Origin: Medicago truncatula
Lineage: Eukaryota > Streptophyta > Magnoliopsida > Fabales > Fabaceae
Assembly: GCF_003473485.1 (NCBI RefSeq)
Contig: NC_053044.1
Span: forward strand, 28,896,091-28,960,090
Reading direction: 5' to 3'
DNA length: 64,000 nt
Shown: in pieces, positions 10,900-64,000 of the stretch
How the letters are laid out: each line of letters starts with the position of its first letter
How positions within the stretch are numbered: position 1 is the first letter of the stretch
The notes under the pieces: model-generated
Told to the model about the DNA's origin: nothing
Databases searched by the model: none
What the model saw: the letters and a program-made list of their open reading frames with translations, nothing else
Translations under genes and position numbers: made by a program

Positions 10900-10947
<48 letters not shown>

Positions 10948-17603: not shown

Positions 17604-17667
17604 GAGCTAAGCTAAAGGTCTATCTACTAGCTCATTCCTAATTATAGAGATATAATACATTATCAAG

Positions 17668-25260: not shown

Positions 25261-25276
25261 TGTATTGCAGTAGGAA

Positions 25277-25969
25277 CAGGGGTGGATCTGGACCGATAAT
25301 ATTAGTGGGGAAATTTTTTTTTTGTCAAATAATTAAATAATACTAGATTTAATAAGTTATATTAAAAATAGTTGTAGCAACCAAAATTACAAAGAAAATA
25401 ATCTATTTTTCGTTTGTTGAAAATGAATTAAAATTATATCATTACTAATTATTCAAAGAACATCTCTTTCTATATAAGTTACAAGAGATGAATCATATAT
25501 TGTAGCACCCATGCATACGAACGGGTGAGCGTGTTGCGCTCTTTTTTTGAAAGCAAATCGTAATTGCGTAGAAATTATAAAAATAAATATATCTCTGTAT
25601 TTTTATATAAATAAAAATATAGACATATGTACAAATTGTAAAAAAAAAATTATTTCCATATTAAATATGAGTAAAAATATAGACATGTGTATAAATTAAA
25701 AAAAAACGGTCCCCGTATTAATATATAAGCTAAAATATAGACACATATATAAATTAAAAATAGGTCATCTTATTAATATATGAGTAAAAATATAGATACG
25801 TGTATAAATTACAGAAAAATATATCTTCGTATTAATATGAGTAAAAATATTGACATATGTATAAATTATACAGTAAAAATTATACATTGAACCGGTAAAA
25901 CTAAAAAAAGAAAAGGACTCAGATTAGTGTGGCACTTGTCACACTGTGCCTTGAAGAGGTCCGCCTCTG
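25277..25969. mobile_element. Non-autonomous hAT element, 693 bp, with 8-bp TSD
   Basis: The ends CAGGGGTGGATCT and AGGTCCGCCTCTG are imperfect inverted repeats in the hAT style (starting CAG). They are flanked by AGTAGGAA at 25269-25276 and 25970-25977, a perfect 8-bp duplication typical of hAT transposition. Removing it rejoins the LINE sequence around it. No transposase is encoded. The interior (about 25600-25880) holds five or six diverged copies of a ~60-bp unit containing 'taaaaatatagacat.tgta'. Confidence 0.85.
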
Positions 25970-25977
25970 AGTAGGAA

Positions 25978-27898
25978 CACTTCCACAATTTTCCAGAACC
26001 GTATAGCAACAATTCTCAGGGTTAATTAGGTCCTGGGTACGGGCAAGTATCTTGGTCTTCCATCAATGATTGGGATGAGCAAGAAAGCGACATTCAAGTT
26101 TGTTAAAGACCAAATTTGGAATCAAATCAACTATTGGAGCAGCAGATGCCTATCTCAAGCAGGGCGAGAGATTCTTATAAAATATATATAACAATCCATA
26201 TCATCTTATGTGATGAGTATATTCTTACTGTCAGGCACCTTCATTAGTGAAATTGAGAAGATGCTTAACACTTTCTGGTGGGCACACAACTCTACAACAT
26301 CACGTGGTATACACTGGTTATCTTGGTAGCGTCTATCTGTTCCTGAGACTTTTGGAGGAATGGGTTTCAAGAACCTTAGGGCCTTTAATTTGGGTATGAT
26401 TGGGAAGCAGACATGGAAACTAATTACTAACTCTGACTCTCTTATCACTAGGCTACTTAAAGCTAAATATTTTTCGCATACTGATTATTTTAGTGCGTCT
26501 ATAGAGCACGATCCAAGCTATGTTTGGAGAAATTTATGGAATGCAAGAGAGGTTCTCAAACGTGAGTTGAAATGGAGTATAGGAACGGTGAGAACCATAT
26601 CAATAGGGAATTAACCTTGGCTAAAAGAATCTATTTGCCTTTAGCCTGTCACAGAAGTGCAGGTTATGTGGGATGCCCTTACTGTTAATCATTTGTTCAA
26701 GCTAAACACAAAGGAGTGGAATGAGAATTTTATCAGGCATGTGTTTGATGCCAAAACCGCAAGTCAGATTTTGCAAACTCCTTTTCTGCCTTTGGCTCAC
26801 ATGGATACGACAACTTGGAAACAGGAGAAGAATGGGCTATATTCAGTGTGTAGTGTGTATCAAGAGATCATTAATAACAATGATTCTATGTTACAACAGA
26901 GTATTACAGGGCGTTGGAATACAATTGGAACCTTAAACGTCCACCTAAGATAAAAAAAATATTAGGTGGCGCCTATGTCATAATTGTTTGTCGACTCGCA
27001 CGTGTTTACTTGCAAAAGGAGTCCAGTGCTCTCCATCTTGTGCTATCTGTGATAATTATGATGAAGATGGTAAGCATTTTTTTGTGTAGCAAGAGTGTCG
27101 ATTGTTGGAAGTGGTCGGGTATTTGGCTTTCAATTCAACAGATCTGATCAGCTGATGTCTCATGTGCTGACATGATTTTCCAGTTATTTCAACAACTAGA
27201 TATTGCTAAAAAAACAAATTTTTGCGGTCACCTTATGGAGCATATGGAAGCACAGAAACAACAAAGTGTGGAATAATGTTGTGGAGACTACTCAACATAT
27301 TGGAGCACACGTGGAGGCTTTTCTAAGTAGCTGGAAGATTAATGCACAAGAAACCATGACCCACACCACTTCTAATTTCTTGCATACTGATTTAGATAAG
27401 TGGACAAAGCCAAGTGTCGGAAGATTTAAATGCAATGTTGATGCATCCTTTTCCACTTCCCTCAATAAAGTCGGTTTCGGAGCTTGCATTCGAGATGCAT
27501 ATGGAAATTATGTGATAGGTCGGACTACTTGCTTCACCCCTTTACTCGATGTTGAGATGGGAGAAGCTATAGGTTTACTACATGCTATGTAATGTTAACG
27601 ATTTTAACCTGGTAAATATGGATTTTGAAACCGATTAAAGGTTGTGGCAGATAGTATCTACAAAGGGGATGGTGTCTCTAATTATATGGCTATAATTCAC
27701 GATTGTAGTAGACAATTGTTGATGATTAATTTAGCGAACTCTGATGTAAAGTTTATTAGGAGACAAACCTATAATGTTGCCCATAGCCTAGCTAGGAAAG
27801 CATTACATCATGCTAATTTCCAATTTCATCTTAACATTCCACATTGTATTCATGCTTTGATTAATAATGAAAAACTATAAGCTTCTTTTTGTAAAAAA
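25978..27898 (+). pseudogene. LINE ORF2 distal part: RT thumb, zf-RVT, RNase H, decayed
   Basis: After the hAT, segments with GKYLGLPSMIGMSKKATFK-type sequence (frame-shifted, about 26038-26100) and GGMGFKNLRAFNLGMIGKQ (from 26354) belong to the RT connection. The zf-RVT region (about 26800-27050) includes TTWKQEKNGLYSV. The RNase H (27203-27880, broken) has KCNVDASFS, giving the first catalytic Asp, and 'VEMGEAIGLLHAM' for the Glu. A tail with 'HSLARKALHHA' matches the final helix. It ends at TAA 27878-27880, followed by an A-run. Confidence 0.75.
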
Positions 27899-30008: not shown

Positions 30009-32420
30009 TCATGTAAGTGTGGCAGAAAATGAAGACATAGAAAAACTACTAGGACTACCCTCAAGAAAAGCCAAAGCCCTCTCCAAATTAGCAACAACAT
30101 CAACCATATTAGGCCTTTCTTTTCCTTCCAAATTCACACAATGCATAGCAGTATAAGCCATAATCTCAACAGATTCAACTTCATTCACTTCTGGTATTCC
30201 AACTCTATGATCCAATAAATTCCACACCTCTCCTGAACCTATCTTTGGCCCTGCATATTCCACCACACCAATAGGACTTGAACCACCTTCAGTTTTAAAC
30301 ACTGCTCTTTTACCTGTCAAAAGCTCCAACATCACAACACCTAAACCATAAACATCACTTTTTGTTGTTAAAACATTTAAAACATAGTACTCAGGATCTA
30401 TGTAACCAACGGTTCCGACCGCTTTTATATTCGACATTGAATCTTGTTCGGTTTCTTGCCAAATTAACGATAATCCGAAGTCGGAAACCCTAGCATTCCA
30501 TTTTGAATCAAGAAGTATGTTTGAGGATTTAATATCTCGATGAATAATCGGTGGTACCGCGTAGTTATGAATGTACTCAATTCCCCTTGCAGCATCTAAT
30601 GCAACTTTGATTCTCATTTTCCATGAATTTAAAATGCTACTATTTTTTTCAACATTATTCTTATCATGCAAATGATCATGTAATGATCCATTACTCATGT
30701 ACTCATACACCAAAAGCCTCTCATCATTCTCCTCACAAAAACCAATTAGTCTCACCAAATGCTTGTGATGAAGCCTTGACAATAGTGTTAACTCAGAATC
30801 AAAAGCTGTTTCTTTCTCTTGGAATTTCTTCTTCTTCAAGCTTGTATCGCCTCTTTTAATCGCGACTTCACGACCGTCTAATAACTTCCCTTTGTAAACA
30901 CATCCAAAACTTCCAGCACCAATTTTATTTCCCAATGAGAAATTGTCACTAGCTGCAACTAACTCCCAAAATGTGAAATTTTCTGTTCTGTCTAATTGCT
31001 TTGAAGATGAACCACTTCTTAATCTACTTGAACTATGTCTTTTACTAGAAAAAGATCTTAACGCCGTTGTTCCAATATTCGGCATTGGAGCTATATCAAC
31101 ATAAGCATCATCAGATTCACTACTTGTAGGTTGAACAGAATTATCGATTTTCGCCTTTAACAATTTTCTTGCACCAATCATAAGAAAATAAAGAAAAGTG
31201 CATAAACCAGAAAAAGCACCAACTGATCCAATAATCATAAATACCATCAATTTCCAACCTCTCAAGTTAGTTTTTTCTTCAACACCTTTAGAAGATTGAT
31301 TCTTAGGTGGTGATGTTGATGGTGGTAGCAACGGCACCGCGAATGGTAACTCGGTTCGACAATCATAACAAATGCTTCCAAAACCTTGACAAAGAAAATC
31401 AGAATTTGGATACACACCACAAGTGCTACATGAATCACTAACACATGGACCAGGAAGAATCATTCCCAATGGAACATTAACATCCTCATTAGTATTACCC
31501 CAACAAATAAGAGACAAATTTTTAATACTCAAACCACAAACAAAATCCAAACCAGCAACAATTGACTCAAAAGAAACACTTTTCATCATCACATGATTAT
31601 TCACACCACCACTATCAAATAAACCACCCCAACATAGAACAAATCCATTCTTTTTTCTAATACCACAAGTGAAATTTTTTCCTAAAGCAAGACCTGAAAA
31701 AACTGAACCAGAATTCAAAGGAACATTTAGCTTACCAGAATCATTGTTCTTCTCACCTTTACAAACCAAAACTTTATCAAGAGTTAAACCACAAACATGT
31801 GACACACCAGCAACCAATGTTGACATTGATAAATTCCCAAACTGTTTCTGAATCTCTTTTTCAACACCCTTTTTACCATTTACACCCCAACAAAAAACTT
31901 TACTATTCTCCTTCAATATCCCACAACAAAAACCAGTACCACAAGTAATGCTTCGAAACCGAAAATTTTCATCAGGAGAAGGAAACTTGAATCCATTAGT
32001 TTCACCATAACCTCTCCAACACCTTACCACACCAGAGTGCAACTCTCTAGCACAAACATGATCATCACCAACAGCTACATCATTCAACTGAACATTTTCA
32101 CTATGATACACCCTTTTAGGTTTGAGAAAAGACTTCCGTGTCCTTGTGTTCCAACAGTGTAGGCTGAGTCCATTAGACCGGAGGCCGCAGAAGAAGCTCC
32201 GGCCACCGGATATGGACTGAAATGAAACGTTGGGGAGTATTGGTGGAATGAGTTTTTTGTTTTGGTAGCATTGGATGTATTGGTAGGGCTTACCGGCGAC
32301 TATGCCGCAGATGGTGGAGGTGTTGTGGATGATGGCGGTAGTGGTGGCGGTGCCGAGGCTGTTGACGGTGGTTATGGTGAAAATGAAGGAGAAAATGAGT
32401 GTTAGTGATGTTGGTGTCAT
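30009..32420 (-). CDS. CRINKLY4-related receptor-like kinase (CCR3-like)
   Basis: A single uninterrupted frame of 803 residues on the minus strand, from ATG 32420 to TAA. Order: signal peptide (about 1-21), extracellular Cys-rich beta-propeller-like repeats containing V/I-x-C-W-G type motifs (about 30-330), a Cys-rich stretch (about 340-365), one membrane helix (about 390-415), juxtamembrane Ser-rich region, and a protein kinase (about 482-790). Kinase landmarks: GAGSFG (501-506), Lys522 in VAIK, HRDIKSSN (Asp629), DFG (Asp647) and GTVGYIDPEYY. It is an RD-type kinase with all catalytic residues. ACR4/CCR proteins sit in the plasma membrane and act in epidermal and meristem signalling; ACR4 binds CLE40-type peptides by reported work. 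Residue pattern, length and lack of introns resemble CCR3 or CCR4; which orthologue is not certain. Confidence 0.9.
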   Translation of the reverse strand: MTPTSLTLIFSFIFTITTVNSLGTATTTAIIHNTSTICGIVAGKPYQYIQCYQNKKLIPPILPNVSFQSISGGRSFFCGLRSNGLSLHCWNTRTRKSFLKPKRVYHSENVQLNDVAVGDDHVCARELHSGVVRCWRGYGETNGFKFPSPDENFRFRSITCGTGFCCGILKENSKVFCWGVNGKKGVEKEIQKQFGNLSMSTLVAGVSHVCGLTLDKVLVCKGEKNNDSGKLNVPLNSGSVFSGLALGKNFTCGIRKKNGFVLCWGGLFDSGGVNNHVMMKSVSFESIVAGLDFVCGLSIKNLSLICWGNTNEDVNVPLGMILPGPCVSDSCSTCGVYPNSDFLCQGFGSICYDCRTELPFAVPLLPPSTSPPKNQSSKGVEEKTNLRGWKLMVFMIIGSVGAFSGLCTFLYFLMIGARKLLKAKIDNSVQPTSSESDDAYVDIAPMPNIGTTALRSFSSKRHSSSRLRSGSSSKQLDRTENFTFWELVAASDNFSLGNKIGAGSFGCVYKGKLLDGREVAIKRGDTSLKKKKFQEKETAFDSELTLLSRLHHKHLVRLIGFCEENDERLLVYEYMSNGSLHDHLHDKNNVEKNSSILNSWKMRIKVALDAARGIEYIHNYAVPPIIHRDIKSSNILLDSKWNARVSDFGLSLIWQETEQDSMSNIKAVGTVGYIDPEYYVLNVLTTKSDVYGLGVVMLELLTGKRAVFKTEGGSSPIGVVEYAGPKIGSGEVWNLLDHRVGIPEVNEVESVEIMAYTAMHCVNLEGKERPNMVDVVANLERALAFLEGSPSSFSMSSFSATLT

Positions 32421-34009
32421 TGGGAAGATGAGTTAGGCTTGTTGGTTTTCTTCATTGATGAGGTTTTTTGATAGGGAAATGGTGTGAGAGAAGAGAAGAG
32501 AAAAGAAGAAAGAGTGTCGTGAGAAAATTAACATAAACATGAACATGCTATTGCATTTTTTATCAACATGATATAGCTACTACTATTTTTTTTTTTTTTG
32601 GTAGAATATAGCTATGTTAGATAGAAAAAAAATAATATAGATTGAAAATTCACACACAAGTAGCATAAAATTAGGGTTCAAACTCCGATCAAGATGTCTA
32701 GTCAAACAATTATGACATTCATTTTAAGAGAATTTCAACATTTTTATCGGCCGTAGGACTTGTGGACTATAACTACTACTATTATTATTTATTAAAAAAA
32801 AAAATACTACTATTATTATGTTTAAAAGAATTATTTATTTTATAAAAAAATAGTTGTAAAATTTTATGTAATTATTAAAAAAATCAGTTACTACTATTTA
32901 ACAAGATAATAAAAATAAAGTGTCTCATAACTAGTACATGTGGAAGCAATTGATTAGGGATGCGATATTTTTGAATTCGGAATTCCCCGCTTCTCAATGC
33001 TAATGTGTATGAGTTTCATTATTAAGCTATTTAAAAAAGAAAAATAACAAAATTATAAATAAAATCTCTCTCAAAGGAAATAATTTAAATAAATAGATAG
33101 AATTGGGATATTAAGATAAAAAAAAAAATTGAGAAAGATTATAAAGATATCAAGATAATATTGATATATCCGAGAAAATTGAAATTGCAGATTATGGTAA
33201 TTAATTGTGACAGTCAACCTTGCTTAAATTTGAAAGAAAAGCCGATAAATGGAATATGATTTGCGTATTTAATTGGTTCTGGTCACCAAGATAAATGAGA
33301 GTTAGGATGAAAGAGGAAACCATTTTCAAATTTGACTGAAGATGACATTGGTCTGTGCCTTGGACGGCTAGTTAATTATTACCATTCAAATATTTGAAAT
33401 ACAGACAGAATTGTTAATTTCTTAAATGCATTGACCAATTAACCAAGAGTGAATTAAAGAAGCTAATTTTCTCTTGTCATTTTTCACAAATTACTCCATT
33501 CAAGATAATTTTGTTTTAGGCATAAATGTGAACAAGGTATGATGTGCTCCCCTTGACTATTTTTTTTAATTTTTTTTTAAATTTGATATCCTTTGCATTT
33601 GCAATTGTAAAGACTAATCACTCGAGCTTTATGAGACTTAAATGAGTAGCAAACTCTTCCTAAAAGTTTCAACGCTACTACATGTCTAAACCTAGATTCG
33701 AATCCAGGACTTTGACTAATTGGATAGATAAACATCTATAGTTAATTTGGAAAATCATATATTTTAGAGAAATGATTGTTTTACCCAAAACTGTGAGGTC
33801 TAAGTCCTAGTTTTGGCTTCTTGATTTTTTTTTTTGGTCAAGTGGCTTCTTGATCTTTATATCGACTCTTTTAATACTTATTTGATATTGTAAAATGACA
33901 TATAAATAAGAAAATTGAGAGGTTTTCAACTCTAAAAGAACCCTGAACTTTGACTAATTAGGTACATTTATTACAAGAAATTAATGAGTTATTTGTCTTT
34001 CTCAGACAA
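32421..34009. other. Spacer upstream of the CCR-like kinase
   Basis: It would contain the kinase promoter next to 32420 (with a pyrimidine-rich stretch on the minus strand at about 32462-32510). About 33600-33720 is a diverged plus-strand copy of the dispersed repeat at 29282-29420. No gene was recognised. Confidence 0.5.
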
Positions 34010-47585: not shown

Positions 47586-47843
47586 AAAACGTGAGAACAT
47601 GAGTATGAGAATAAATAAACTACTTTTAAAAGAAATTCAAGTACATTATATTCTTACAATTTTTTATAGTTAGAATTGATTGTCTTAATTGTAAGTTTGA
47701 CCAAGAATATTGAAGTTCAAAACATTTCCCTTTTATATAAGAATAATAAGGAATAAAATATGAAATCACTAACAAGACTTTTTTAACATTAAAAATAAAC
47801 AAAAAAATTTAAAGAGTTACTAAAAAAATCGCAACAGGTTTTG

Positions 47844-47851
47844 CATATAAA
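47844..47851 (+). promoter_or_regulatory. Likely TATA box of the first nsLTP gene
   Basis: CATATAAA lies 77 bp upstream of the ATG at 47928. The equivalent sites in the later units are at 51962, 54846, 57729, 60614 and 63498, all at about the same distance. Confidence 0.5.
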
Positions 47852-47927
47852 GTAAGGCATACTTGCAGAGACCAATCATTCTAAACATCCACAAAAACAT
47901 CATACACATAAACATATTCAAATTAAA

Positions 47928-48508
47928 ATGTTGAGGAAGAAAATTATTTGTCTTTCTATGCTTGTGATGGTTTTAGGCATGCTAGTAGCAACATTAGATG
48001 CACGCCAAATTGATGACGTGAGCTGCTCTTCGGCTCTTTTTTCCTTGTTGCCATGTCTGCCTTTTTTGCAGGGAGTTGGCCCTGCTACACCAACTAGTTA
48101 TTGTTGTGCAGGAGCAAATGATTTAAATCAAAAGGCTAACACCACTCAGATTCGGAGGGATGTGTGCAATTGTCTCAAACCGTCTGCATCAAGATTCGGA
48201 GTTAACCCAGATAGATCAAAACAACTACCAACTCTTTGCAACATTACTCTCAATGTTCCTTTTGATCCAAGCGTCGATTGCAACACGTAAGTATTTCTTT
48301 CAAACTCACACATATGCATACCTTGTTTTTGAAATGTTTAAAGTTAGTTGATAATTGATTTTTAAATGGAACGAGGTAAAACAGTGAATTCCTTATAATC
48401 TAACCTTACATCTCTCCATGAAACGCACAAAATCTAATTATTATTTAATTTCTAGAACATTTTTATTTTGGTCTAATTTTTTTTTCATTTTTGTGCAGGG
48501 TTCAATGA
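47928..48508 (+). CDS. Type 1 nonspecific lipid transfer protein, unit 1
   Basis: Two exons: 47928-48286 and 48499-48508, with GT-AG borders; the second exon adds Val-Gln and the TGA. The protein has 122 residues. Residues 1-25 form a signal peptide. The mature part has the eight-Cys motif with spacing C-X9-C-X15-CC-X19-CXC-X21-C-X13-C, which defines type 1 nsLTPs. These small secreted proteins bind fatty acyl chains in a cavity held by four disulfides and act at the cell wall, for example in cuticle assembly or defence. Differences from units 2-6 include Ser-Ser instead of Pro-Ser after the first Cys, Ala-Asn instead of Ile-Thr after CCAG, and KPSASR instead of KPAASR. Its intron is 31 bases longer. 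Confidence 0.92.
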
Positions 48509-48975
48509 TTCGACAAAATTGGACTTGAAGACCATAAAGAAACATTGAAGATTTACCAAGATAACAATAATTGTATCCATAAGAAAATTGAAAAATTGTA
48601 CCAACCATTTAATGTTGGTTAACTTTTCTAAGTTTTATTATTAATTGAAAAAAGTTATTACAACTTGTTACATTGTTTTTAAGTTTAATATGATCTTTTA
48701 GAGATTAAATCGTAAAGAAAAAAACTACGAACATATAATTACATATATTTCATAAACTTGAATGATTAAAATTCAAATAAAAAATATTAAAATAATATTT
48801 ACACTACCTATATCAAGAGTTTTTACATTGTCAATGAATCCTATTTGTTACATCATTAAAAATATTTGCCTTTAATCATACTTACTACTAAAGTCACATA
48901 TATGATTTCTATCTGATTGGTTGACAATCTTAAACTTTATACACGGATAGTGTATCAAATTAAACTCTAATGATT

Positions 48976-49944
48976 TTGTGGCGTTTTATCCATGGTCGTA
49001 TGCCTACAGATGAAAACCTCCGGACGCGGGGATGTGTCATAGTTTCTGCTTGCTGCTTTTGTTTAAAAACCGTTGAAACATCTGATCATACATTTCTTCA
49101 GTGCCCTTTTGCAATTAATCTCTGGAACTTGCTTGGTGGTAAGCTTAACTATTTGATAGATTGTACTTCAGCTCTTTCGCTTTTATCTTGCATTCCTGCT
49201 CATTGTTCTTCTCAGATAGCGGATATTTTCCTAGCAGCCGTGATTCACACCGTGCATACCATTTGGCTTGCTCGCAATAACATTTGGTTTTCCTCGACAG
49301 CTACAACCTTTCACTCCGCAAAGGTCCGCATTCACTCCTGGGTAGCCTCGTCTGGTAATTCCTCGATTGGGAAATGTTTGCCTTCGGATTCCCATTTCCT
49401 CGATTCTTTTGCGGTTGCTGCCCATTGTCGCACTGTTAAAGAGATCATTCCGGTGTTGTGGAAGGCTCCATTCCCTCCTTGGTTGAAAGTTAATACTGAT
49501 GGTTCTGTTATCGCTGGCCATGCGGCTTGTGGTGGCCTCTTTCGTGACTCTAGGGGCTCTTTTCTTGGTGCTTTCTGTTGTAACGTTGGGGAGGCATCGG
49601 TTTATCATTCTGAAGTCCTTGCTATTATTTTATCCATGGAGCGTGCGTCCTCTCGTAGATGGCGAAATCTTTGGTTGGAAAGTGACTCATCTAGTGCTTT
49701 GTTGATTTTTTCCAACCCTTCTTTGGTGCCCATCTTGCTTCGAAACAGGTGGCATAATGCCCGTAACCTTGGTATTCAGATTATCTCTTCTCACATCTTT
49801 CGTGAAGGTAACCGTTGTGCGGACAAATTAGCAACTTTGGGTCATGCTATACAGGGATCAGTTTGGTTGGATGTGCTTCCTCCGGATTTGCTTTTTGACT
49901 TCGTTCGGGATAGACTAGGCTTGCCTAACTACAGATTTCCTTAG
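48976..49944 (+). CDS. LINE ORF2 C-terminus: zf-RVT plus intact RNase H frame
   Basis: An uninterrupted frame of about 322 codons. First the zf-RVT region (FIHGRMPTDENLRTRGC, then CFCLKTVETSDHTFLQCPF). Then an RNase H of the RVT_3 type with VNTDGS (first Asp), HSEVLAI (Glu), LESDSS (Asp) and EGNRCADKLA (last Asp), so all four acidic catalytic residues are kept. RNase H removes RNA from the RNA-DNA hybrid during retrotransposition. No promoter is present; the ATG at 48970 that opens the frame belongs to the target duplication. The frame is intact because the insertion is young, not because it is used. Confidence 0.85.
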   Translation: MWRFIHGRMPTDENLRTRGCVIVSACCFCLKTVETSDHTFLQCPFAINLWNLLGGKLNYLIDCTSALSLLSCIPAHCSSQIADIFLAAVIHTVHTIWLARNNIWFSSTATTFHSAKVRIHSWVASSGNSSIGKCLPSDSHFLDSFAVAAHCRTVKEIIPVLWKAPFPPWLKVNTDGSVIAGHAACGGLFRDSRGSFLGAFCCNVGEASVYHSEVLAIILSMERASSRRWRNLWLESDSSSALLIFSNPSLVPILLRNRWHNARNLGIQIISSHIFREGNRCADKLATLGHAIQGSVWLDVLPPDLLFDFVRDRLGLPNYRFP

Positions 49945-50161
49945 GGTCTTGTAGTCTGCTGTTTGTTTCCTTGTTTTCGCTTTTTTTTCTTCTGAGGGTT
50001 TTGGCATAGTCCCCCCCTCTTCTTGTACAGTTTTCCCCCTTTTTTAATAATATTTTAGAGTTTGGCAGCATAGGATGGAGGTTTTCCGAAGTGCCAACCT
50101 AGTTGGGATGTCGGTGTTGCCTCTTGATGCTTGTCCTCTCTCCTCGCTCAAAAAAAAAAAA
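48976..50161 (+). mobile_element. 5'-truncated LINE with poly(A) and 14-bp TSD, inserted in LTP unit 1
   Basis: The insert is flanked by AAACTCTAATGATT at 48962-48975 and 50162-50175, and ends in an A-run (about 50149-50161). Units 2-6 have no insert at this site: there the sequence runs straight from 'tatcaaattaa' to 'ctaatgattaaaag'. It is a clean target-primed insertion that lost its 5' part. Confidence 0.9.
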
Positions 50162-50566
50162 AAACTCTAATGATTAAAAGTTCTTTTTATTTTTTTGACA
50201 AGTGATTAAAAGTTCTTGTTTAGTAGATTTTACATAAATAACCTTAATGAAAATTATTATTTTTCTAACTCTTTATCATGTCATTTTATTTTAACATTTT
50301 ATATGAGACTTAAAATATAGGTCAAGTTGTCTTGCCAAACAACAGGGACATAAATATTTAAATCATCCATATGTTATATATATGATCATTAAGATAACAT
50401 AACATTGATATATGTTCAGATTATAAATTGAAATTTCAAACCATTACTAGAGGTATCTCCTAGTTTAAAGAAATCACGAACCTATATATAATTAGAATGA
50501 TGAAATATCAACGAGACAAAACAATATTTCTTAATATTAGATCAATTCAACAAGTTAAAATAACGT

Positions 50567-50908
50567 TTAACACATATTCGTGATCAACATAATTACACTT
50601 GAAAGGGTCTTTAAACCAGACGTCGGTGATGCAGAAATTAACATGACAACCAACATTTTAAGCAATACAACTACCCACCACCTCATAGATGGCGGTGGCT
50701 GCAGAATACTGTATAAGACGGACGACCAACCCTTGAAAGGTTTCAAAAAATCCATTGTTCCTAGATCCGGAAGATTGGAAGAAGGGTAAATATTAGGAGT
50801 TGAAAGAGAGCCACTTGGGGCGGTGAAAGGCCACATGAGGTATTCAAGCTGATTGCTACCTACGAACGAGTGGAGGTGGTGCGACGGTGACGCAAGCACA
50901 CCACCCAC
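50567..50908 (-). CDS. Unknown 113-codon frame in each LTP repeat unit, doubtful
   Basis: The minus-strand frame occurs at 50567-50908, 53453-53794, 56337-56678, 59221-59562 and 62106-62447, in units 1-5. It starts MGGVLASPSHHLHS and ends ITNMC. Opposite it, on the plus strand, a 69-codon frame is open in every unit too. I do not recognise either. Because the units are near copies, openness in all five says little; unit 1, the most diverged, keeps the frame with a few changes (for example one Ser to Phe). Base composition is richer in G+C than the surrounding spacer, so this may be an exon or relic of some gene carried in the unit. Confidence 0.25.
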   Translation of the reverse strand: MGGVLASPSHHLHSFVGSNQLEYLMWPFTAPSGSLSTPNIYPSSNLPDLGTMDFLKPFKGWSSVLYSILQPPPSMRWWVVVLLKMLVVMLISASPTSGLKTLSSVIMLITNMC

Positions 50909-52045
50909 ACAAGAATCTACATGTTTGTGGAGATCTTTTGGATGTTGGGGAGAATAAGAAGGGTGGTTTTTGGTGTGATACGGCGGTGGGTAAGGATGGA
51001 GAGAAAGAAGAGAGAGAAGAGAGAAGTGATTAATGATCTTTCAAAACACACATACCATGAGAAACATTTGAGTTAAGTATTTGACCAATAGGAATTTAAT
51101 GATCTTGTTCACTAATTTCTTATATAACAAAATCACGTAGAGAACGATTTTTTTTTTGTTTGAAATTGAAATATACATGGTTTGAGTTTTTTTAATTATG
51201 GAAAATAATAACACATAAGGAGTTAGCTCAACAATAAAAACTTATTTTTATAGCCTTAAAGGCTGAAGTTTAAATCCCATATACGAAAACTTTAAATGGA
51301 TCTTACAACCACCATTATAGACGCTTTCAAAAGAAACCCACCACTATAGACAATACTTACCCAAATTAAATTTTTAAAAGAAAATAAAAAAAATTAGTTT
51401 TATTAAAATTTATAGTTAGATTTGTAAAATTTCTATAAATTTCATCCTATTAAAAAAATATTATATTTTTAAAAATATATTTAATTGGAATTATATTTTT
51501 ATCAAAGTAGTACATTTTCTATTTTATAGTACTTTAAAAACTATTAATCTTTACATGATGAGAAACTAAAAAAAATACATCGCAAAGATTATAATATTAA
51601 CTAACAATATCCTTTCAGATAACCGAACAATGAATTAGTAAGAGATATCACAATCCGTCTATCTTCGATGATTAAATGATATACTATAACTAACAAGATT
51701 AACATGACAAAACGTGGGAACAGAATAAAAAAAAAAAACTACTTTAAAAAGAATTTCGAGTACATTATTTTCTTACAATTTTTTATAGTTAGAATTGATT
51801 GTCTTTATTATAAGTTTGACCAAGAAAATTGAAGGTCAAAACATATCCCTTTTATATAAGAATAATAAGGAATAAAATATGAAATCAATAACAAGACTTT
51901 TTTAACATTAGAAATAAACAAAAAATTTAAAGAGTTACTAAAAAACTCGTAACAGGTTTTACATATAAATTAAGGCATACTTGCAGAGACCAATCATTCT
52001 AATCATCCACAAAAACATCATACACATACAAATATTTAAATTAAA

Positions 52046-52595
52046 ATATTGAGGAAGAAAATTATTTCTCTTTCTATGCTTGTGATGGTTTTAGGCATGC
52101 TAGTAGCAACATTAGATGCACGCCAAATTGATGACGTGAGCTGTCCTTCGGCTCTTTTTTCCTTGTTGCCATGTCTGCCTTTTTTGCAGGGAGTTGGCCC
52201 TGCTACACCAACTAGTTATTGTTGTGCAGGAATAACTGATTTAAATCAAAAGGCTAACACCACTCAGATTCGGAGGGATGTGTGCAATTGTCTCAAACCG
52301 GCTGCATCAAGATTCGGAGTTAACCCAGATAGATCAAAACAACTACCAACTCTTTGCAACATTACTCTCAATGTTCCTTTTGATCCAAGCGTCGATTGCA
52401 ACACGTAAGTTTTTCTTTCAAACTCGCACATATGCATACCTTGTTTTTTAAATGGAACGAGGTAAAACGGTGAATTCCTTTTAATCTAACCTTACATCTC
52501 TTCTTGAAAATCACAAAACCTGATTATTATTTAATTTCTAAAACATTTTTATTTTGGTCTAATTTTTTTATTCATTTTTGTGCAGGGTTCAATGA
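52046..52595 (+). pseudogene. nsLTP unit 2, initiator ATG mutated to ATA
   Basis: Exon 1 52046-52404 and exon 2 52586-52595 mirror the other units and the splice sites are intact. At 52046-52048 the sequence reads ATA instead of ATG, directly before TTGAGGAAG. The next in-frame ATG is at 52076 (Met 11 of the normal protein). Use of it would shorten the signal peptide by ten residues, removing the Arg-Lys-Lys N-region but keeping a hydrophobic core (MLVMVLGMLVATLDA). So the gene is either dead or makes a protein with an altered signal. The mature sequence equals that of units 3-6. Confidence 0.8.
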
Positions 52596-54929
52596 TTTGA
52601 CAAAATGGGACTTGAAGACCATAAAGAAACATTGAAGATTTACGAAGATAACAATAATTGTTTCCATAAGAAAATTGAAAAATTGTACCAACCATTTAAT
52701 GTTGGTTAACTTTTCTATGTTTTATTATTAATTGAAAAAAAAATTATTACAACTTGTTTCATTGTTTTTAAGTTTAATACGATGTTCTAGAGATTAAATC
52801 GTAAAGAAAAAAACTACGAACATATAATTACATATATTTCATAAACTTGAATGATAAAAATTCAAATAAAAAATATTAAAATAATATTTACACTACCTAT
52901 ATCAAGAGTTTTTACATTGTCAATGAATCCAATTTGTTACATCATTAAAAATTTTTGCCTTTAATCATACTTACTACTAAAGTCACATATATGATTTCTA
53001 TCTGATTGGTTGACAATCTTAAACTTTATACACGGATAGTGTATCAAATTAAGGTCTAATGATTAAAAGTTCTTTTTCTTTTGACAAGTGATTAAAAGTT
53101 CTTGTTTAGTAGATTTTACATAAATAACCTTAACGAAAATTGTTATTTTTCTAACTCTTTATCATGTCATTTTATTTTAATATTTTATATGAGACTTAAA
53201 ATATAGGTCAAGTTGTCTTGCCAAACAACAGGGACATAAATATTTAAATCATCCATATGTTATATATATGATCATTAAGATAACATAACATTGATATATG
53301 TTCAGATTATAAATTGAAATTTCAAACCATTACTAGAGGTATCTCCTAGTTTAAAGAAATCACGAACCTATATATAATTAGAATGATGAAATATCAACGA
53401 GACAAAACAATATTTCTTAATATTAGATCAATTCAACAAGTTAAAATAACGTTTAACACATATTCGTGATCCACATAATTAGACTTGAAAGGGTCTTTAA
53501 ACCAGACGTCGGTGATGCAGAAATTAACATGACAACCAACATTTTAAGCAATACAACTACCCACCACCTCATAGATGGCGGTGGCTGCAGAGTACTGTAT
53601 AAGACGGACGACCAACCCTTGAAAGGTTTCAAAAAATCCATTGTTCCTAGATCCGGAAGATTGGAAGAAGGGTAAATATTAGGAGTTGAAAGAGAGCCAC
53701 TTGGGGCGGTGAAAGGCCACATGAGGTATTCAAGCTGATTGCTACCTACGGACGAGTGGAGGTGGTGCGACGGTGACGCAAGCACACCACCCACACAAGA
53801 ATCTACATGTTTGTGGAGATCTTTTGGATGTTGGGGAGAATAAGAAGGGTGGTTTTTGGTGTGATACGGCGGTGGGTAAGGATGGAGAGAAAGAAGAGAG
53901 AGGAGAGAGAAGTGATTAATGATCTTTCAAAACACACATACCATGAGAAACATTTGAGTTAAGTATTTGACCAATAGGAATTTAATGATCTTGTTCACTA
54001 ATTTCTTATATAACAAAATCACGTAGAGAACGATTTTTTTTTGTTTGAAATTGAAATATACATGGTTTGAGTTTTTTTAATTATGGAAAATAATAACACA
54101 TAAGGAGTTAGCTCAACAATAAAAACTTATTTTTATAGCCTTAAAGGCTGAAGTTTAAATCCCATATACGAAAACTTTAAATGGATGTTACAACCACCAT
54201 TATAGACGCTTTCAAAAGAAACCCACCACTATAGACAATACTTACCCAAATTAAATTTTTAAAAGAAAATAAAAAAATTAGTTTTATTAAAATTTATAGA
54301 TAGATTTGTAAAATTTCTATAAATTTCATCCTATTAAAAAAATATTATATTTTTAAAAATATATTTAATTGGAATTATATTTTTATCAAAGTAGTACATT
54401 TTCTATTTTATAGTACTTTAAAAACTATTAATCTTTACATGATGAGAAACTAAAAAAAATACATCGCAAAGATTATAATATTAACTAACAATATCCTTTC
54501 AGATAACCGAACAATGAATTAGTAAGAGATATCACAATCCGTCTATCTTCGATAATTAAATGATATACTATAACTAACAAGATTAACATGACAAAACGTG
54601 GGAACAGAATAAAAAAAAAAAACTACTTTAAAAAGAATTTCGAGTACATTATTTTCTTACAATTTTTTATAGTTAGAATTGATTGTCTTTATTATAAGTT
54701 TGACCAAGAAAATTGAAGGTCAAAACATATCCCTTTTATATAAGAATAATAAGGAATAAAATATGAAATCAATAACAAGACTTTTTTAACATTAGAAATA
54801 AACAAAAAATTTAAAGAGTTACTAAAAAACTCGTAACAGGTTTTACATATAAATTAAGGCATACTTGCAGAGACCAATCATTCTAATCATCCACAAAAAC
54901 ATCATACACATACAAATATTTAAATTAAA

Positions 54930-55479
54930 ATATTGAGGAAGAAAATTATTTCTCTTTCTATGCTTGTGATGGTTTTAGGCATGCTAGTAGCAACATTAGA
55001 TGCACGCCAAATTGATGACGTGAGCTGTCCTTCGGCTCTTTTTTCCTTGTTGCCATGTCTGCCTTTTTTGCAGGGAGTTGGCCCTGCTACACCAACTAGT
55101 TATTGTTGTGCAGGAATAACTGATTTAAATCAAAAGGCTAACACCACTCAGATTCGGAGGGATGTGTGCAATTGTCTCAAACCGGCTGCATCAAGATTCG
55201 GAGTTAACCCAGATAGATCAAAACAACTACCAACTCTTTGCAACATTACTCTCAATGTTCCTTTTGATCCAAGCGTCGATTGCAACACGTAAGTTTTTCT
55301 TTCAAACTCGCACATATGCATACCTTGTTTTTTAAATGGAACGAGGTAAAACGGTGAATTCCTTTTAATCTAACCTTACATCTCTTCTTGAAAATCACAA
55401 AACCTGATTATTATTTAATTTCTAAAACATTTTTATTTTGGTCTAATTTTTTTATTCATTTTTGTGCAGGGTTCAATGA
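54930..55479 (+). pseudogene. nsLTP unit 3, initiator ATG mutated to ATA
   Basis: Exon 1 54930-55288 and exon 2 55470-55479. It shares the ATG-to-ATA change with unit 2 (54930-54932); the next in-frame ATG is 54960. The rest of the reading frame and the splice sites are intact. The shared change shows that units 2 and 3 are closest relatives at this site, or that one converted the other. Confidence 0.8.
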
Positions 55480-57812
55480 TTTGACAAAATGGGACTTGAA
55501 GACCATAAAGAAACATTGAAGATTTACGAAGATAACAATAATTGTTTCCATAAGAAAATTGAAAAATTGTACCAACCATTTAATGTTGGTTAACTTTTCT
55601 ATGTTTTATTATTAATTGAAAAAAAAATTATTACAACTTGTTTCATTGTTTTTAAGTTTAATACGATGTTCTAGAGATTAAATCGTAAAGAAAAAAACTA
55701 CGAACATATAATTACATATATTTCATAAACTTGAATGATAAAAATTCAAATAAAAAATATTAAAATAATATTTACACTACCTATATCAAGAGTTTTTACA
55801 TTGTCAATGAATCCAATTTGTTACATCATTAAAAATTTTTGCCTTTAATCATACTTACTACTAAAGTCACATATATGATTTCTATCTGATTGGTTGACAA
55901 TCTTAAACTTTATACACGGATAGTGTATCAAATTAAGGTCTAATGATTAAAAGTTCTTTTTCTTTTGACAAGTGATTAAAAGTTCTTGTTTAGTAGATTT
56001 TACATAAATAACCTTAACGAAAATTGTTATTTTTCTAACTCTTTATCATGTCATTTTATTTTAATATTTTATATGAGACTTAAAATATAGGTCAAGTTGT
56101 CTTGCCAAACAACAGGGACATAAATATTTAAATCATCCATATGTTATATATATGATCATTAAGATAACATAACATTGATATATGTTCAGATTATAAATTG
56201 AAATTTCAAACCATTACTAGAGGTATCTCCTAGTTTAAAGAAATCACGAACCTATATATAATTAGAATGATGAAATATCAACGAGACAAAACAATATTTC
56301 TTAATATTAGATCAATTCAACAAGTTAAAATAACGTTTAACACATATTCGTGATCCACATAATTAGACTTGAAAGGGTCTTTAAACCAGACGTCGGTGAT
56401 GCAGAAATTAACATGACAACCAACATTTTAAGCAATACAACTACCCACCACCTCATAGATGGCGGTGGCTGCAGAGTACTGTATAAGACGGACGACCAAC
56501 CCTTGAAAGGTTTCAAAAAATCCATTGTTCCTAGATCCGGAAGATTGGAAGAAGGGTAAATATTAGGAGTTGAAAGAGAGCCACTTGGGGCGGTGAAAGG
56601 CCACATGAGGTATTCAAGCTGATTGCTACCTACGGACGAGTGGAGGTGGTGCGACGGTGACGCAAGCACACCACCCACACAAGAATCTACATGTTTGTGG
56701 AGATCTTTTGGATGTTGGGGAGAATAAGAAGGGTGGTTTTTGGTGTGATACGGCGGTGGGTAAGGATGGAGAGAAAGAAGAGAGAGGAGAGAGAAGTGAT
56801 TAATGATCTTTCAAAACACACATACCATGAGAAACATTTGAGTTAAGTATTTGACCAATAGGAATTTAATGATCTTGTTCACTAATTTCTTATATAACAA
56901 AATCACGTAGAGAACGATTTTTTTTTGTTTGAAATTGAAATATACATGGTTTGAGTTTTTTTAATTATGGAAAATAATAACACATAAGGAGTTAGCTCAA
57001 CAATAAAAACTTATTTTTATAGCCTTAAAGGCTGAAGTTTAAATCCCATATACGAAAACTTTAAATGGATGTTACAACCACCATTATAGACGCTTTCAAA
57101 AGAAACCCACCACTATAGACAATACTTACCCAAATTAAATTTTTAAAAGAAAATAAAAAAATTAGTTTTATTAAAATTTATAGATAGATTTGTAAAATTT
57201 CTATAAATTTCATCCTATTAAAAAATATTATATTTTTAAAAATATATTTAATTGGAATTATATTTTTATCAAAGTAGTACATTTTCTATTTTATAGTACT
57301 TTAAAAACTATTAATCTTTACATGATGAGAAACTAAAAAAAATACATCGCAAAGATTATAATATTAACTAACAATATCCTTTCAGATAACCGAACAATGA
57401 ATTAGTAAGAGATATCACAATCCGTCTATCTTCGATGATTAAATGATATACTATAACTAACAAGATTAACATGACAAAACGTGGGAACAGAATAAAAAAA
57501 AAAAACTACTTTAAAAAGAATTTCGAGTACATTATTTTCTTACAATTTTTTATAGTTAGAATTGATTGTCTTTATTATAAGTTTGACCAAGAAAATTGAA
57601 GGTCAAAACATATCCCTTTTATATAAGAATAATAAGGAATAAAATATGAAATCAATAACAAGACTTTTTTAACATTAGAAATAAACAAAAAATTTAAAGA
57701 GTTACTAAAAAACTCGTAACAGGTTTTACATATAAATTAAGGCATACTTGCAGAGACCAATCATTCTAATCATCCACAAAAACATCATACACATACAAAT
57801 ATTTAAATTAAA

Positions 57813-58362
57813 ATGTTGAGGAAGAAAATTATTTCTCTTTCTATGCTTGTGATGGTTTTAGGCATGCTAGTAGCAACATTAGATGCACGCCAAATTGATG
57901 ACGTGAGCTGTCCTTCGGCTCTTTTTTCCTTGTTGCCATGTCTGCCTTTTTTGCAGGGAGTTGGCCCTGCTACACCAACTAGTTATTGTTGTGCAGGAAT
58001 AACTGATTTAAATCAAAAGGCTAACACCACTCAGATTCGGAGGGATGTGTGCAATTGTCTCAAACCGGCTGCATCAAGATTCGGAGTTAACCCAGATAGA
58101 TCAAAACAACTACCAACTCTTTGCAACATTACTCTCAATGTTCCTTTTGATCCAAGCGTCGATTGCAACACGTAAGTTTTTCTTTCAAACTCGCACATAT
58201 GCATACCTTGTTTTTTAAATGGAACGAGGTAAAACGGTGAATTCCTTTTAATCTAACCTTACATCTCTTCTTGAAAATCACAAAACCTGATTATTATTTA
58301 ATTTCTAAAACATTTTTATTTTGGTCTAATTTTTTTATTCATTTTTGTGCAGGGTTCAATGA
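57813..58362 (+). CDS. Type 1 nonspecific lipid transfer protein, unit 4
   Basis: Exons 57813-58171 and 58353-58362, GT-AG. The start is ATGTTGAGG. The 122-residue product has the signal peptide and eight-Cys motif described for unit 1, with the Pro-Ser, Ile-Thr and KPAASR variants shared by units 2-6. TATA-like CATATAAA sits at 57729-57736. Confidence 0.92.
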
Positions 58363-60697
58363 TTTGACAAAATGGGACTTGAAGACCATAAAGAAACATT
58401 GAAGATTTACGAAGATAACAATAATTGTTTCCATAAGAAAATTGAAAAATTGTACCAACCATTTAATGTTGGTTAACTTTTCTATGTTTTATTATTAATT
58501 GAAAAAAAAAATTATTACAACTTGTTTCATTGTTTTTAAGTTTAATACGATGTTCTAGAGATTAAATCGTAAAGAAAAAAACTACGAACATATAACTACA
58601 TATATTTCATAAACTTGAATGATAAAAATTCAAATAAAAAATATTAAAATAATATTTACACTACCTATATCAAGAGTTTTTACATTGTCAATGAATCCAA
58701 TTTGTTACATCATTAAAATTTTTTGCCTTTAATCATACTTACTACTAAAGTCACATATATGATTTCTATCTGATTGGTTGACAATCTTAAACTTTATACA
58801 CGGATAGTGTATCAAATTAAGGTCTAATGATTAAAAGTTCTTTTTCTTTTGACAAGTGATTAAAAGTTCTTGTTTAGTAGATTTTACATAAATAACCTTA
58901 ACGAAAATTGTTATTTTTCTAACTCTTTATCATGTCATTTTATTTTAATATTTTATATGAGACTTAAAATATAGGTCAAGTTGTCTTGCCAAACAACAGG
59001 GACATAAATATTTAAATCATCCATATGTTATATATATGATCATTAAGATAACATAACATTGATATATGTTCAGATTATAAATTGAAATTTCAAACCATTA
59101 CTAGAGGTATCTCCTAGTTTAAAGAAATCACGAACCTATATATAATTAGAATGATGAAATATCAACGAGACAAAACAATATTTCTTAATATTAGATCAAT
59201 TCAACAAGTTAAAATAACGTTTAACACATATTCGTGATCCACATAATTAGACTTGAAAGGGTCTTTAAACCAGACGTCGGTGATGCAGAAATTAACATGA
59301 CAACCAACATTTTAAGCAATACAACTACCCACCACCTCATAGATGGCGGTGGCTGCAGAGTACTGTATAAGACGGACGACCAACCCTTGAAAGGTTTCAA
59401 AAAATCCATTGTTCCTAGATCCGGAAGATTGGAAGAAGGGTAAATATTAGGAGTTGAAAGAGAGCCACTTGGGGCGGTGAAAGGCCACATGAGGTATTCA
59501 AGCTGATTGCTACCTACGGACGAGTGGAGGTGGTGCGACGGTGACGCAAGCACACCACCCACACAAGAATCTACATGTTTGTGGAGATCTTTTGGATGTT
59601 GGGGAGAATAAGAAGGGTGGTTTTTGGTGTGATACGGCGGTGGGTAAGGATGGAGAGAAAGAAGAGAGAGGAGAGAGAAGTGATTAATGATCTTTCAAAA
59701 CACACATACCATGAGAAACATTTGAGTTAAGTATTTGACCAATAGGAATTTAATGATCTTGTTCACTAATTTCTTATATAACAAAATCACGTAGAGAACG
59801 ATTTTTTTTTGTTTGAAATTGAAATATACATGGTTTGAGTTTTTTTAATTATGGAAAATAATAACACATAAGGAGTTAGCTCAACAATAAAAACTTATTT
59901 TTATAGCCTTAAAGGCTGAAGTTTAAATCCCATATACGAAAACTTTAAATGGATGTTACAACCACCATTATAGACGCTTTCAAAAGAAACCCACCACTAT
60001 AGACAATACTTACCCAAATTAAATTTTTAAAAGAAAATAAAAAAATTAGTTTTATTAAAATTTATAGATAGATTTGTAAAATTTCTATAAATTTCATCCT
60101 ATTAAAAAAATATTATATTTTTAAAAATATATTTAATTGGAATTATATTTTTATCAAAGTAGTACATTTTCTATTTTATAGTACTTTAAAAACTATTAAT
60201 CTTTACATGATGAGAAACTAAAAAAAATACATCGCAAAGATTATAATATTAACTAACAATATCCTTTCAGATAACCGAACAATGAATTAGTAAGAGATAT
60301 CACAATCCGTCTATCTTCGATGATTAAATGATATACTATAACTAACAAGATTAACATGACAAAACGTGGGAACAGAATAAAAAAAAAAAACTACTTTAAA
60401 AAGAATTTCGAGTACATTATTTTCTTACAATTTTTTATAGTTAGAATTGATTGTCTTTATTATAAGTTTGACCAAGAAAATTGAAGGTCAAAACATATCC
60501 CTTTTATATAAGAATAATAAGGAATAAAATATGAAATCAATAACAAGACTTTTTTAACATTAGAAATAAACAAAAAATTTAAAGAGTTACTAAAAAACTC
60601 GTAACAGGTTTTACATATAAATTAAGGCATACTTGCAGAGACCAATCATTCTAATCATCCACAAAAACATCATACACATACAAATATTTAAATTAAA

Positions 60698-61247
60698 ATG
60701 TTGAGGAAGAAAATTATTTCTCTTTCTATGCTTGTGATGGTTTTAGGCATGCTAGTAGCAACATTAGATGCACGCCAAATTGATGACGTGAGCTGTCCTT
60801 CGGCTCTTTTTTCCTTGTTGCCATGTCTGCCTTTTTTGCAGGGAGTTGGCCCTGCTACACCAACTAGTTATTGTTGTGCAGGAATAACTGATTTAAATCA
60901 AAAGGCTAACACCACTCAGATTCGGAGGGATGTGTGCAATTGTCTCAAACCGGCTGCATCAAGATTCGGAGTTAACCCAGATAGATCAAAACAACTACCA
61001 ACTCTTTGCAACATTACTCTCAATGTTCCTTTTGATCCAAGCGTCGATTGCAACACGTAAGTTTTTCTTTCAAACTCGCACATATGCATACCTTGTTTTT
61101 TAAATGGAACGAGGTAAAACGGTGAATTCCTTATAATCTAACCTTACATCTCTCCATGAAACGCACAAAACCTGATTATTATTTAATTTCTAGAACATTT
61201 TTATTTTGGTCTAATTTTTTTATTCATTTTTGTGCAGGGTTCAATGA
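60698..61247 (+). CDS. Type 1 nonspecific lipid transfer protein, unit 5
   Basis: Exons 60698-61056 and 61238-61247, GT-AG. The protein is identical to that of unit 4. The intron differs: it shares 'ccttataatctaacc' and 'ctctccatgaaacgcac' with unit 1, where units 2-4 have 'ccttttaatctaacc' and 'ctcttcttgaaaatcac'. Confidence 0.92.
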
Positions 61248-63581
61248 TTTGACAAAATGGGACTTGAAGACCATAAAGAAACATTGAAGATTTACGAAGA
61301 TAACAATAATTGTTTCCATAAGAAAATTGAAAAATTGTACCAACCATTTAATGTTGGTTAACTTTTCTAAGTTTCATTATTAATTGAAAAAAAAAATTAT
61401 TACAACTTGTTTCATTGTTTTTAAGTTTAATACGATGTTCTAGAGATTAAATCGTAAAGAAAAAAACTACGAACATATAATTACATATATTTCATAAACT
61501 TGAATGATAAAAATTCAAATAAAAAATATTAAAATAATATTTACACTACCTATATCAAGAGTTTTTACATTGTCAATGAATCCAATTTGTTACATCATTA
61601 AATTTTTTTGCCTTTAATCATACTTACTACTAAAGTCACATATATGATTTCTATCTGATTGGTTGACAATCTTAAACTTTATACACGGATAGTGTATCAA
61701 ATTAAGGTCTAATGATTAAAAGTTCTTTTTCTTTTGACAAGTGATTAAAAGTTCTTGTTTAGTAGATTTTACATAAATAACCTTAACGAAAATTGTTATT
61801 TTTCTAACTCTTTATCATGTCATTTTATTTTAATATTTTATATGAGACTTAAAATATAGGTCAAGTTGTCTTGCCAAACAACAGGGACATAAATATTTAA
61901 ATCATCCATATGTTATATATATGATCATTAAGATAACATAACATTGATATATGTTCAGATTATAAATTGAAATTTCAAACCATTACTAGAGGTATCTCCT
62001 AGTTTAAAGAAATCACGAACCTATATATAATTAGAATGATGAAATATCAACGAGACAAAACAATATTTCTTAATATTAGATCAATTCAACAAGTTAAAAT
62101 AACGTTTAACACATATTCGTGATCCACATAATTAGACTTGAAAGGGTCTTTAAACCAGACGTCGGTGATGCAGAAATTAACATGACAACCAACGTTTTAA
62201 GCAATACAACTACCCACCACCTCATAGATGGCGGTGGCTGCAGAATACTGTATAAGACGGATGGCCAACCCTTGAAAGGTTTCAAAAAATCCATTGTTCC
62301 TAGATCCGGAAGATTGGAAGAAGGGTAAATATTAGGAGTTGAAAGAGAGCCACTTGGGGCGGTGAAAGGCCACATGAGGTATTCAAGCTGATTGCTACCT
62401 ACGGACGAGTGGAGGTGGTGCGACGGTGACGCAAGCACACCACCCACACAAGAATCTACATGTTTGTGGAGATCTTTTTGATGTTGGGGAGAATAAGAAG
62501 GGTGGTTTTTGGTGTGATACGGCGGTGGGTAAGGATGGAGAGAAAGAAGAGAGAGAAGAGAGAAGTGATTAATGATCTTTCAAAACACACATACCATGAG
62601 AAACATTTGAGTTAAGTATTTGACCAATAGGAATTTAATGATCTTGTTCACTAATTTCTTATATAACAAAATCACGTAGAGAACGATTTTTTTTGTTTGA
62701 AATTGAAATATACATGGTTTGAGTTTTTTTAATTATGGAAAATAATAACACATAAGGAGTTAGCTCAACAATAAAAACTTATTTTTATAGCCTTAAAGGC
62801 TGAAGTTTAAATCCCATATACGAAAACTTTAAATGGATGTTACAACCACCATTATAGACGCTTTCAAAAGAAACCCACCACTATAGACAATACTTACCCA
62901 AATTAAATTTTTAAAAGAAAATAAAAAAATTAGTTTTATTAAAATTTATAGTTAGATTTGTAAAATTTCTATAAATTTCATCCTATTAAAAAAATATTAT
63001 ATTTTTAAAAATATATTTAATTGGAATTATATTTTTATCAAAGTAGTACATTTTCTATTTTATAGTACTTTAAAAACTATTAATCTTTACATGATGAGAA
63101 ACTAAAAAAAATACATCGCAAAGATTATAATATTAACTAACAATATCCTTTCAGATAACCGAACAATGAATTAGTAAGAGATATCACAATCCGTCTATCT
63201 TCGATGATTAAATGATATACTATAACTAACAAGATTAACATGACAAAACGTGGGAACAGAATAAAAAAAAAAAACTACTTTAAAAAGAATTTCGAGTACA
63301 TTATTTTCTTACAATTTTTTATAGTTAGAATTGATTGTCTTTATTATAAGTTTGACCAAGAAAATTGAAGGTCAAAACATATCCCTTTTATATAAGAATA
63401 ATAAGGAATAAAATATGAAATCAATAACAAGACTTTTTTAACATTAGAAATAAACAAAAAATTTAAAGAGTTACTAAAAAACTCGTAACAGGTTTTACAT
63501 ATAAATTAAGGCATACTTGCAGAGACCAATCATTCTAATCATCCACAATAACATCATACACATACAAATATTTAAATTAAA

Positions 63582-64000
63582 ATGTTGAGGAAGAAAATTA
63601 TTTCTCTTTCTATGCTTGTGATGGTTTTAGGCATGCTAGTAGCAACATTAGATGCACGCCAAATTGATGACGTGAGCTGTCCTTCGGCTCTTTTTTCCTT
63701 GTTGCCATGTCTGCCTTTTTTGCAGGGAGTTGGCCCTGCTACACCAACTAGTTATTGTTGTGCAGGAATAACTGATTTAAATCAAAAGGCTAACACCACT
63801 CAGATTCGGAGGGATGTGTGCAATTGTCTCAAACCGGCTGCATCAAGATTCGGAGTTAACCCAGATAGATCAAAACAACTACCAACTCTTTGCAACATTA
63901 CTCTCAATGTTCCTTTTGATCCAAGCGTCGATTGCAACACGTAAGTTTTTCTTTCAAACTCGCACATATGCATACCTTGTTTTTTAAATGGAACGAGGTA
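63582..64000 (+). CDS. Type 1 nonspecific lipid transfer protein, unit 6 (cut by window edge)
   Basis: Exon 1 is 63582-63940 and starts ATGTTGAGG; the donor GTAAGT follows. Exon 2, expected about 182 bases further on near 64122, lies outside the window. The encoded part equals units 4 and 5. The array therefore probably continues to the right. Confidence 0.88.

Follow-up and report, generated by a model that had tools for sequence, protein, structure and literature searches.

A tandem array of predicted type I nsLTP genes in Medicago truncatula with a mosaic, LINE-bearing end unit

Tandem growth is well documented for plant nsLTP genes. For example, 18 of 49 nsLTP genes in Arabidopsis and 17 genes in Brassica rapa are arranged in tandem (PMC3908880), and four tandem duplication events have been described in the chickpea LTP family (PMC10348895). 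Tandem gene arrays with 'mixed dynamics' have also been reported in Trypanosoma brucei (PMC1855330). Here, we describe an array found in a 64,000-nucleotide stretch of Medicago truncatula DNA (the window). Similar to the Arabidopsis and B. rapa nsLTPs, its genes appear to have expanded in tandem, to belong to type I and to carry one intron shortly before the stop codon; the difference is that the copies described here are near-identical across whole 2.88-kb units, and spacer identity is not given in the accessible portion of that report and ages are not comparable (PMC3908880). In chickpea, tandem duplication likewise adds to family growth, but the accessible portion of that work describes no near-identical array (PMC10348895). 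Like our locus, the T. brucei arrays combine similar inner copies with a divergent end copy that is set apart by altered intergenic DNA; however, the organism and the genes are different, and in our case it is a LINE insert that alters the intergenic DNA, the spacer itself having hardly diverged (PMC1855330). Our literature search returned no paper joining nsLTP with tandem duplication and unequal crossing, and none joining lipid transfer protein with copy number variation, tandem array and long-read.

Layout and identity of the six units

Self-BLAST of the whole window revealed direct repeats between 50166-61116 and 53055-64000 (99.6% over 10,953 bp), further in-register direct repeats offset by two, three and four of the ~2.88-kb periods, and, at 47586-48975, a copy of the nsLTP block that has diverged further. 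The array consists of six head-to-tail copies of the predicted type I nsLTP gene on the forward strand and extends from 47586 to the window edge at 64000. Both self-BLAST and the unit alignment bear out the six-unit tandem nsLTP array proposed in an initial annotation of this DNA, which also expected the array to run past the window edge, and unit 6 is indeed cut at 64000. With unit boundaries set by cutting at the start of the nsLTP block, unit 1 (47586-51708) is followed by unit 2 (51709-54592, 2884 bp), unit 3 (54593-57475, 2883 bp), unit 4 (57476-60360, 2885 bp), unit 5 (60361-63244, 2884 bp) and the first 756 bp of unit 6 (63245-64000), the remainder of which lies beyond the window. The near-constant length noted earlier is thus confirmed, and the figure of ~2.88 kb applies to units 2-5 but not to unit 1, which self-BLAST, alignment and change-point analysis resolve into a diverged nsLTP block, a 1,186-bp LINE and an array-like spacer, 4,123 bp in all.

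Pairwise comparison of exons, introns and spacers gave overall alignment identities of 99.34-99.97% among units 2-5. Units 2 and 3 are 99.97% identical, with one substitution and one gap column in 2,884 columns; unit 4 is 99.86-99.90% identical to these two, unit 5 is 99.34-99.41% identical to units 2-4, and the visible part of unit 6 differs from units 2-5 at one or two of 756 bases. Among units 2-6 there are 24 variable alignment columns, and each of these units carries at least one private variant, that of unit 3 being a one-base deletion. Broken down by region, the differences between pairs of units 2-5 number 0 over the 337 upstream positions, 0-1 over the 359 of exon 1, 0-6 over the 181 of the intron, 0-4 over the ~482 of the 3' part and 0-8 over the ~1524 of the spacer. 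Across the in-register units, noncoding DNA is about as alike as coding DNA, which is the pattern taken here to mark recent amplification, the exception being the intron of unit 5, which shows six differences in every pair. The near-identity that had been claimed for spacers and introns alike therefore holds for the spacers, but the introns are not uniform.

Predicted genes and proteins

The amplified gene is, as judged from its sequence, an nsLTP of type I (LTP1), presumably of the secreted kind. Pfam matches to PF00234 (3.1e-9) and PF14368 (5.7e-8) are above cut-off for the copies in units 1 and 5, and all 17 PDB sequences found at E up to 0.001 are named lipid transfer proteins (plant nsLTPs, best E 1.1e-15). 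The predicted precursor has 122 residues in units 1-5, with the lost start of units 2 and 3 (see below) counted as codon 1, and is cut in unit 6. Taking the general eight-cysteine form C-Xn-C-Xn-CC-Xn-CXC-Xn-C-Xn-C with type I spacing as our guide, we found the pattern C-X9-C-X15-CC-X19-CXC-X21-C-X13-C in the two copies measured, those of units 1 and 5; a published type I example reads C-X9-C-X13-CC-X19-CXC-X21-C-X13-C (PMC3908880). Under three assumed cleavage sites the mature protein would have 92-98 residues, in line with the ~90 expected for type I. As for a possible N-terminal signal peptide, nine-residue windows that start at residues 5-16 of the unit 5 protein average 1.6-3.0 on the Kyte-Doolittle hydropathy scale. 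A single-sequence AlphaFold model of 94 residues was too poor (mean pLDDT 49.5) to be used in judging the compact helical fold with its lipid tunnel. Because the flanking genes look dicot, we also considered, by literature description alone, a reading as a nodulation LTP (MtN5-like), for which we claim nothing; in the accessible portions of these reports, MtN5 is described as having high homology with DIR1 and grouping with nsLTP-like proteins (PMC3564872), and, of the nsLTPs studied in nodulation, AsE246 is so far the only one said to be of type I (PMC10520049).

The gene copy of unit 1 spans 47928-48508 and encodes 122 aa, with exon 1 at 47928-48286, a 212-bp intron at 48287-48498 and a stop codon ending at 48508. 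In unit 4, exon 1 (57813-58171) is followed by an intron of 181 bp (58172-58352) and the stop ends at 58362; the nsLTP coding regions of units 2, 3 and 5 occupy 52046-52595, 54930-55479 and 60698-61247, and unit 6 shows exon 1 (63582-63940) and an intron donor at 63941. The predicted GT-AG intron, 181 bp long or 212 bp in unit 1, where it carries a 32-bp segment absent from the other units, interrupts codon 120 and is followed by ten bases, stop included, so that the protein ends VQ. The introns that had been proposed appear real: units 1-5 have one each, predicted 7 bp upstream of the stop in all five copies covered, and unit 6 shows the donor only, while the 120-aa open reading frames terminate by reading into the intron. 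For comparison, type I nsLTP genes of B. rapa are reported to contain one intron, located 7-59 bp before the stop codon (PMC3908880). Upstream of the gene, the three units examined (1, 2 and 4) have a TATA-like motif at -84, and the stretch from there to the start is free of ATG.

In units 2 and 3 the start codon reads ATA instead of ATG, its last base (alignment column 345) having changed from G to A in both, and the next in-frame ATG, at 52076 and 54960, respectively, is codon 11. A start at Met11 would drop the first 10 residues, keeping much of the hydrophobic stretch and losing the basic residues. These two copies could therefore start at Met11 with a signal peptide missing its basic end, or be impaired.

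The proposed identity of the mature proteins of units 2-6 stands for codons 2-122 of units 2-5; the last exon of unit 6 lies beyond the window, so its comparison is limited to codons 1-120, which are the same as in units 4 and 5. The unit 1 protein does differ, as had been stated, by five amino acids from that of unit 4, four of them past the signal-peptide region, but the divergence is confined to the left half of the unit. These codon changes, five nonsynonymous and one synonymous (dN 0.022, dS 0.012), are too few for a claim of positive selection on unit 1. Within its left block, 7 of 366 coding positions differ, as against 49 of 1104 noncoding ones (p 0.027).

The mosaic first unit and the history of the array

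Unit 1 diverges from the array by 4.05-4.47% in its gene-bearing left part (columns 1-1475) and by 0.52-0.59% in the spacer (columns 1572 to the end). Its private differences number 60 over 2,879 compared columns, with 56 of 1470 on the left and 4 of 1409 on the right (Fisher p 9.5e-13). The switch from ~4% to ~0.5% divergence falls at 50257-50352, best at 50296, positions obtained by arithmetic from the column numbers (columns 1476-1571, best 1515); the likelihood gain was 26.3, a value not approached by any of 300 permutations, which were scanned every three columns and reached 10.0 at most, and the best column was identical against each of units 2-5 separately.

The 3' flank of the unit 1 gene contains the 1,186-bp insert (48976-50161, forward strand), which is bordered by a target-site duplication: the left copy, AAACTCTAATGATT at 48962-48975, is an exact 14-bp match to the right copy at 50162-50175, the first three A of which merge with the poly(A) tail, giving a length of 11-14 bp. 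An open reading frame at 48970-49944 matches PF13966 (zf-RVT; 1.4e-12, profile positions 35-85 of 85) and PF13456 (RVT_3, RNase H domain; 4.3e-13), and Pfam found no reverse transcriptase domain in this frame. The duplication, the poly(A) tail, the end of zf-RVT and the RNase H domain therefore identify the insert as a fragment of a non-LTR retrotransposon (LINE), 5'-truncated inside zf-RVT. The LINE and its duplication are present in one unit only, at alignment column 1394, and because both copies of the duplication bear two unit-1-specific bases (columns 1383-1384), the element entered unit-1-type DNA. Pieces of a second LINE-like element lie elsewhere in the window at 24751-27592 (forward strand; a match to RVT_1 at 24751-25194 and one to RVT_3, below the cut-off, at 27200-27589), and neither the self-BLAST hits nor tblastn at E 0.001 matched it to the LINE of unit 1.

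The left part was polarised with unit 1 as the outgroup, the comparison containing no outgroup species. In ungapped columns 1-1475, seven sites group units 2-4, one groups units 2 and 3 and one groups units 4 and 5; from column 1572 to the end, three sites group units 2-4 and none conflicts. These sites suggest that relationships follow array order, units 2 and 3 first, then unit 4 and then unit 5, the visible stretch of unit 6 being too short to place. Such nesting of derived sites is what stepwise unequal crossing-over would be expected to leave, and it supports the very recent unequal crossing-over envisaged in the initial annotation. Two features conflict with the nesting, a substitution at column 1281 and a poly-A length difference at column 1064, both at A/T runs. 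Moreover, units 1 and 5 are alike against units 2-4 at ten sites, which are not independent because six of them fall inside 61 columns of the intron, a degree of clustering that none of 200,000 random draws reproduced; one gene conversion or complex mutation is probably behind most of the ten.

We believe that an older duplicate of ~1.5 kb, followed by recent stepwise amplification of a 2.88-kb spacer-plus-gene unit by unequal crossing-over, is the probable history of this locus. A ~1.5-kb block holding the gene would have duplicated first, unequal crossing-over between the two gene blocks would then have doubled the intervening spacer, and further 2.88-kb units would have been added by the same process. 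The newest visible units, 2 and 3 and then 4, would adjoin unit 1, which would account for similarity following array order, and the LINE would have inserted at an undated time, 121 columns left of the switch. This history is supported by the contrast between the divergence of unit 1 over its left ~1.5 kb, which holds promoter, gene and 3' flank, and the near-identity of the five spacers and the five other gene copies. In the right part, furthermore, unit 1 is as far from units 2-4 as unit 5 is (0.52-0.59% in both cases), and the spacers therefore appear to coalesce at one recent depth, as would be expected if the spacer had been single-copy until amplification began. Against it, the introns of unit 5 and units 2-4 are less alike than the exons (6/181), and a later crossover or conversion swapping the unit 1 spacer fits the same data. 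Plant substitution rates are 6.5e-9 to 1e-8 per site per year, which, with large uncertainty, puts the left part of unit 1 at roughly 2-3 million years, units 2-5 at 0.33-0.51 million years and units 2 and 3 at 17-27 thousand years, a figure that rests on one substitution; conversion would bias these estimates.

An old duplication of the whole 2.88-kb unit, after which units to the right of the LINE went on exchanging sequence, the LINE insert and the unique flank barred the left part of unit 1 from taking part, and the LINE or the array edge became a homogenisation boundary, seems to us unlikely. The switch does lie on the array-facing side of the LINE, 82-177 columns from its site, divergence peaks at the outer edge of unit 1 (20 of 245 columns, against 36 of 1225 in the remaining left block, p 0.0004), and T. 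brucei arrays have been described in which divergent end copies are physically segregated and their intergenic DNA is remodelled (PMC1855330). However, the coincidence of switch and LINE is weak, since a random switch would fall this near in ~12% of cases (2 x 177 / 2884), about one in eight; coding constraint combined with a freely drifting upstream region could also produce the edge gradient, the LINE may have inserted before or after the exchange, and against unit 2 or unit 3 alone support for the switch begins as early as column 1118, to the left of the LINE site. The further idea that the LINE acts as an insulator against homogenisation, leaving the unit 1 gene frozen and evolving on its own (five amino-acid changes against one synonymous change) in an otherwise uniform array, strikes us as quite doubtful, and no direct precedent for a retrotransposon as such a boundary appeared in the titles and abstract openings of the matches listed for conversion-blocking insertions and array edges.

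That strong and continuing gene conversion, in place of recent amplification, has kept an old array uniform is very unlikely: the clustered intron sites and the mosaic of unit 1 suggest past exchange, but the sites nest in array order, with the changes of units 2-4 and the start loss of units 2 and 3 common to neighbours, as duplication predicts, and conversion strong enough to remove former divergence ought to have left the variants scattered. The strong homogenisation offered as an alternative in the initial annotation is accordingly less favoured on its own, although some exchange is suggested; the unit 1 mosaic, the LINE, the start-codon loss and the array-order relationships had no place in that annotation. 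Finally, false repetition of one or two true units during assembly is extremely improbable, because the units carry their own variants and the LINE with its duplication sits in unit 1 only, and random consensus errors would not be expected to yield ten sites common to units 2-4, even though units 2 and 3 are nearly identical and the case was judged from the assembled sequence.

Neighbourhood and wider meaning

All five spacers contain a minus-strand open frame of 89 aa (50567-50836, 53453-53722, 56337-56606, 59221-59490 and 62106-62375); a second gene in the spacer was set aside, the one copy scanned having no Pfam match at E 0.1. We also set aside amplification as a mobile element because no inverted-repeat pair frames the ends of unit 4, the unit examined. 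A tblastn search of the whole window (E up to 10) for dispersed relics of the nsLTP gene found only the six copies and one chance match inside the LINE (E 1.8), and comparison of the 1 kb left of the array with the spacer gave only two short matches (E 0.66 each).

Elsewhere in the window, open frames with TIR, NB-ARC, Roq1-like winged-helix and LRR_3 matches follow in a row at 10244-13426 (forward strand), which we read as a TIR-NBS-LRR resistance-type gene, a kind that indicates a dicot plant. An 807-aa open frame at 30009-32432 (minus strand) combines a protein kinase domain with a match to an RCC1-type repeat and in this resembles CRINKLY4-type receptor kinases, and an open frame at 17656-18216 (forward strand) shows alpha/beta hydrolase matches over part of the fold.

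Tandem growth is ordinary in plant gene families, and this array is, as its sequence suggests, a good example of a known process. It offers a clear worked example of how a plant array grows, with a partly readable birth order, end-copy divergence, a start loss common to two copies and a LINE beside the switch. The likely effect of the array would be more transcript of one lipid-binding protein. Moreover, copy number may well differ between plants and, if it does, expression or association studies that treat the array as one gene would be misled.
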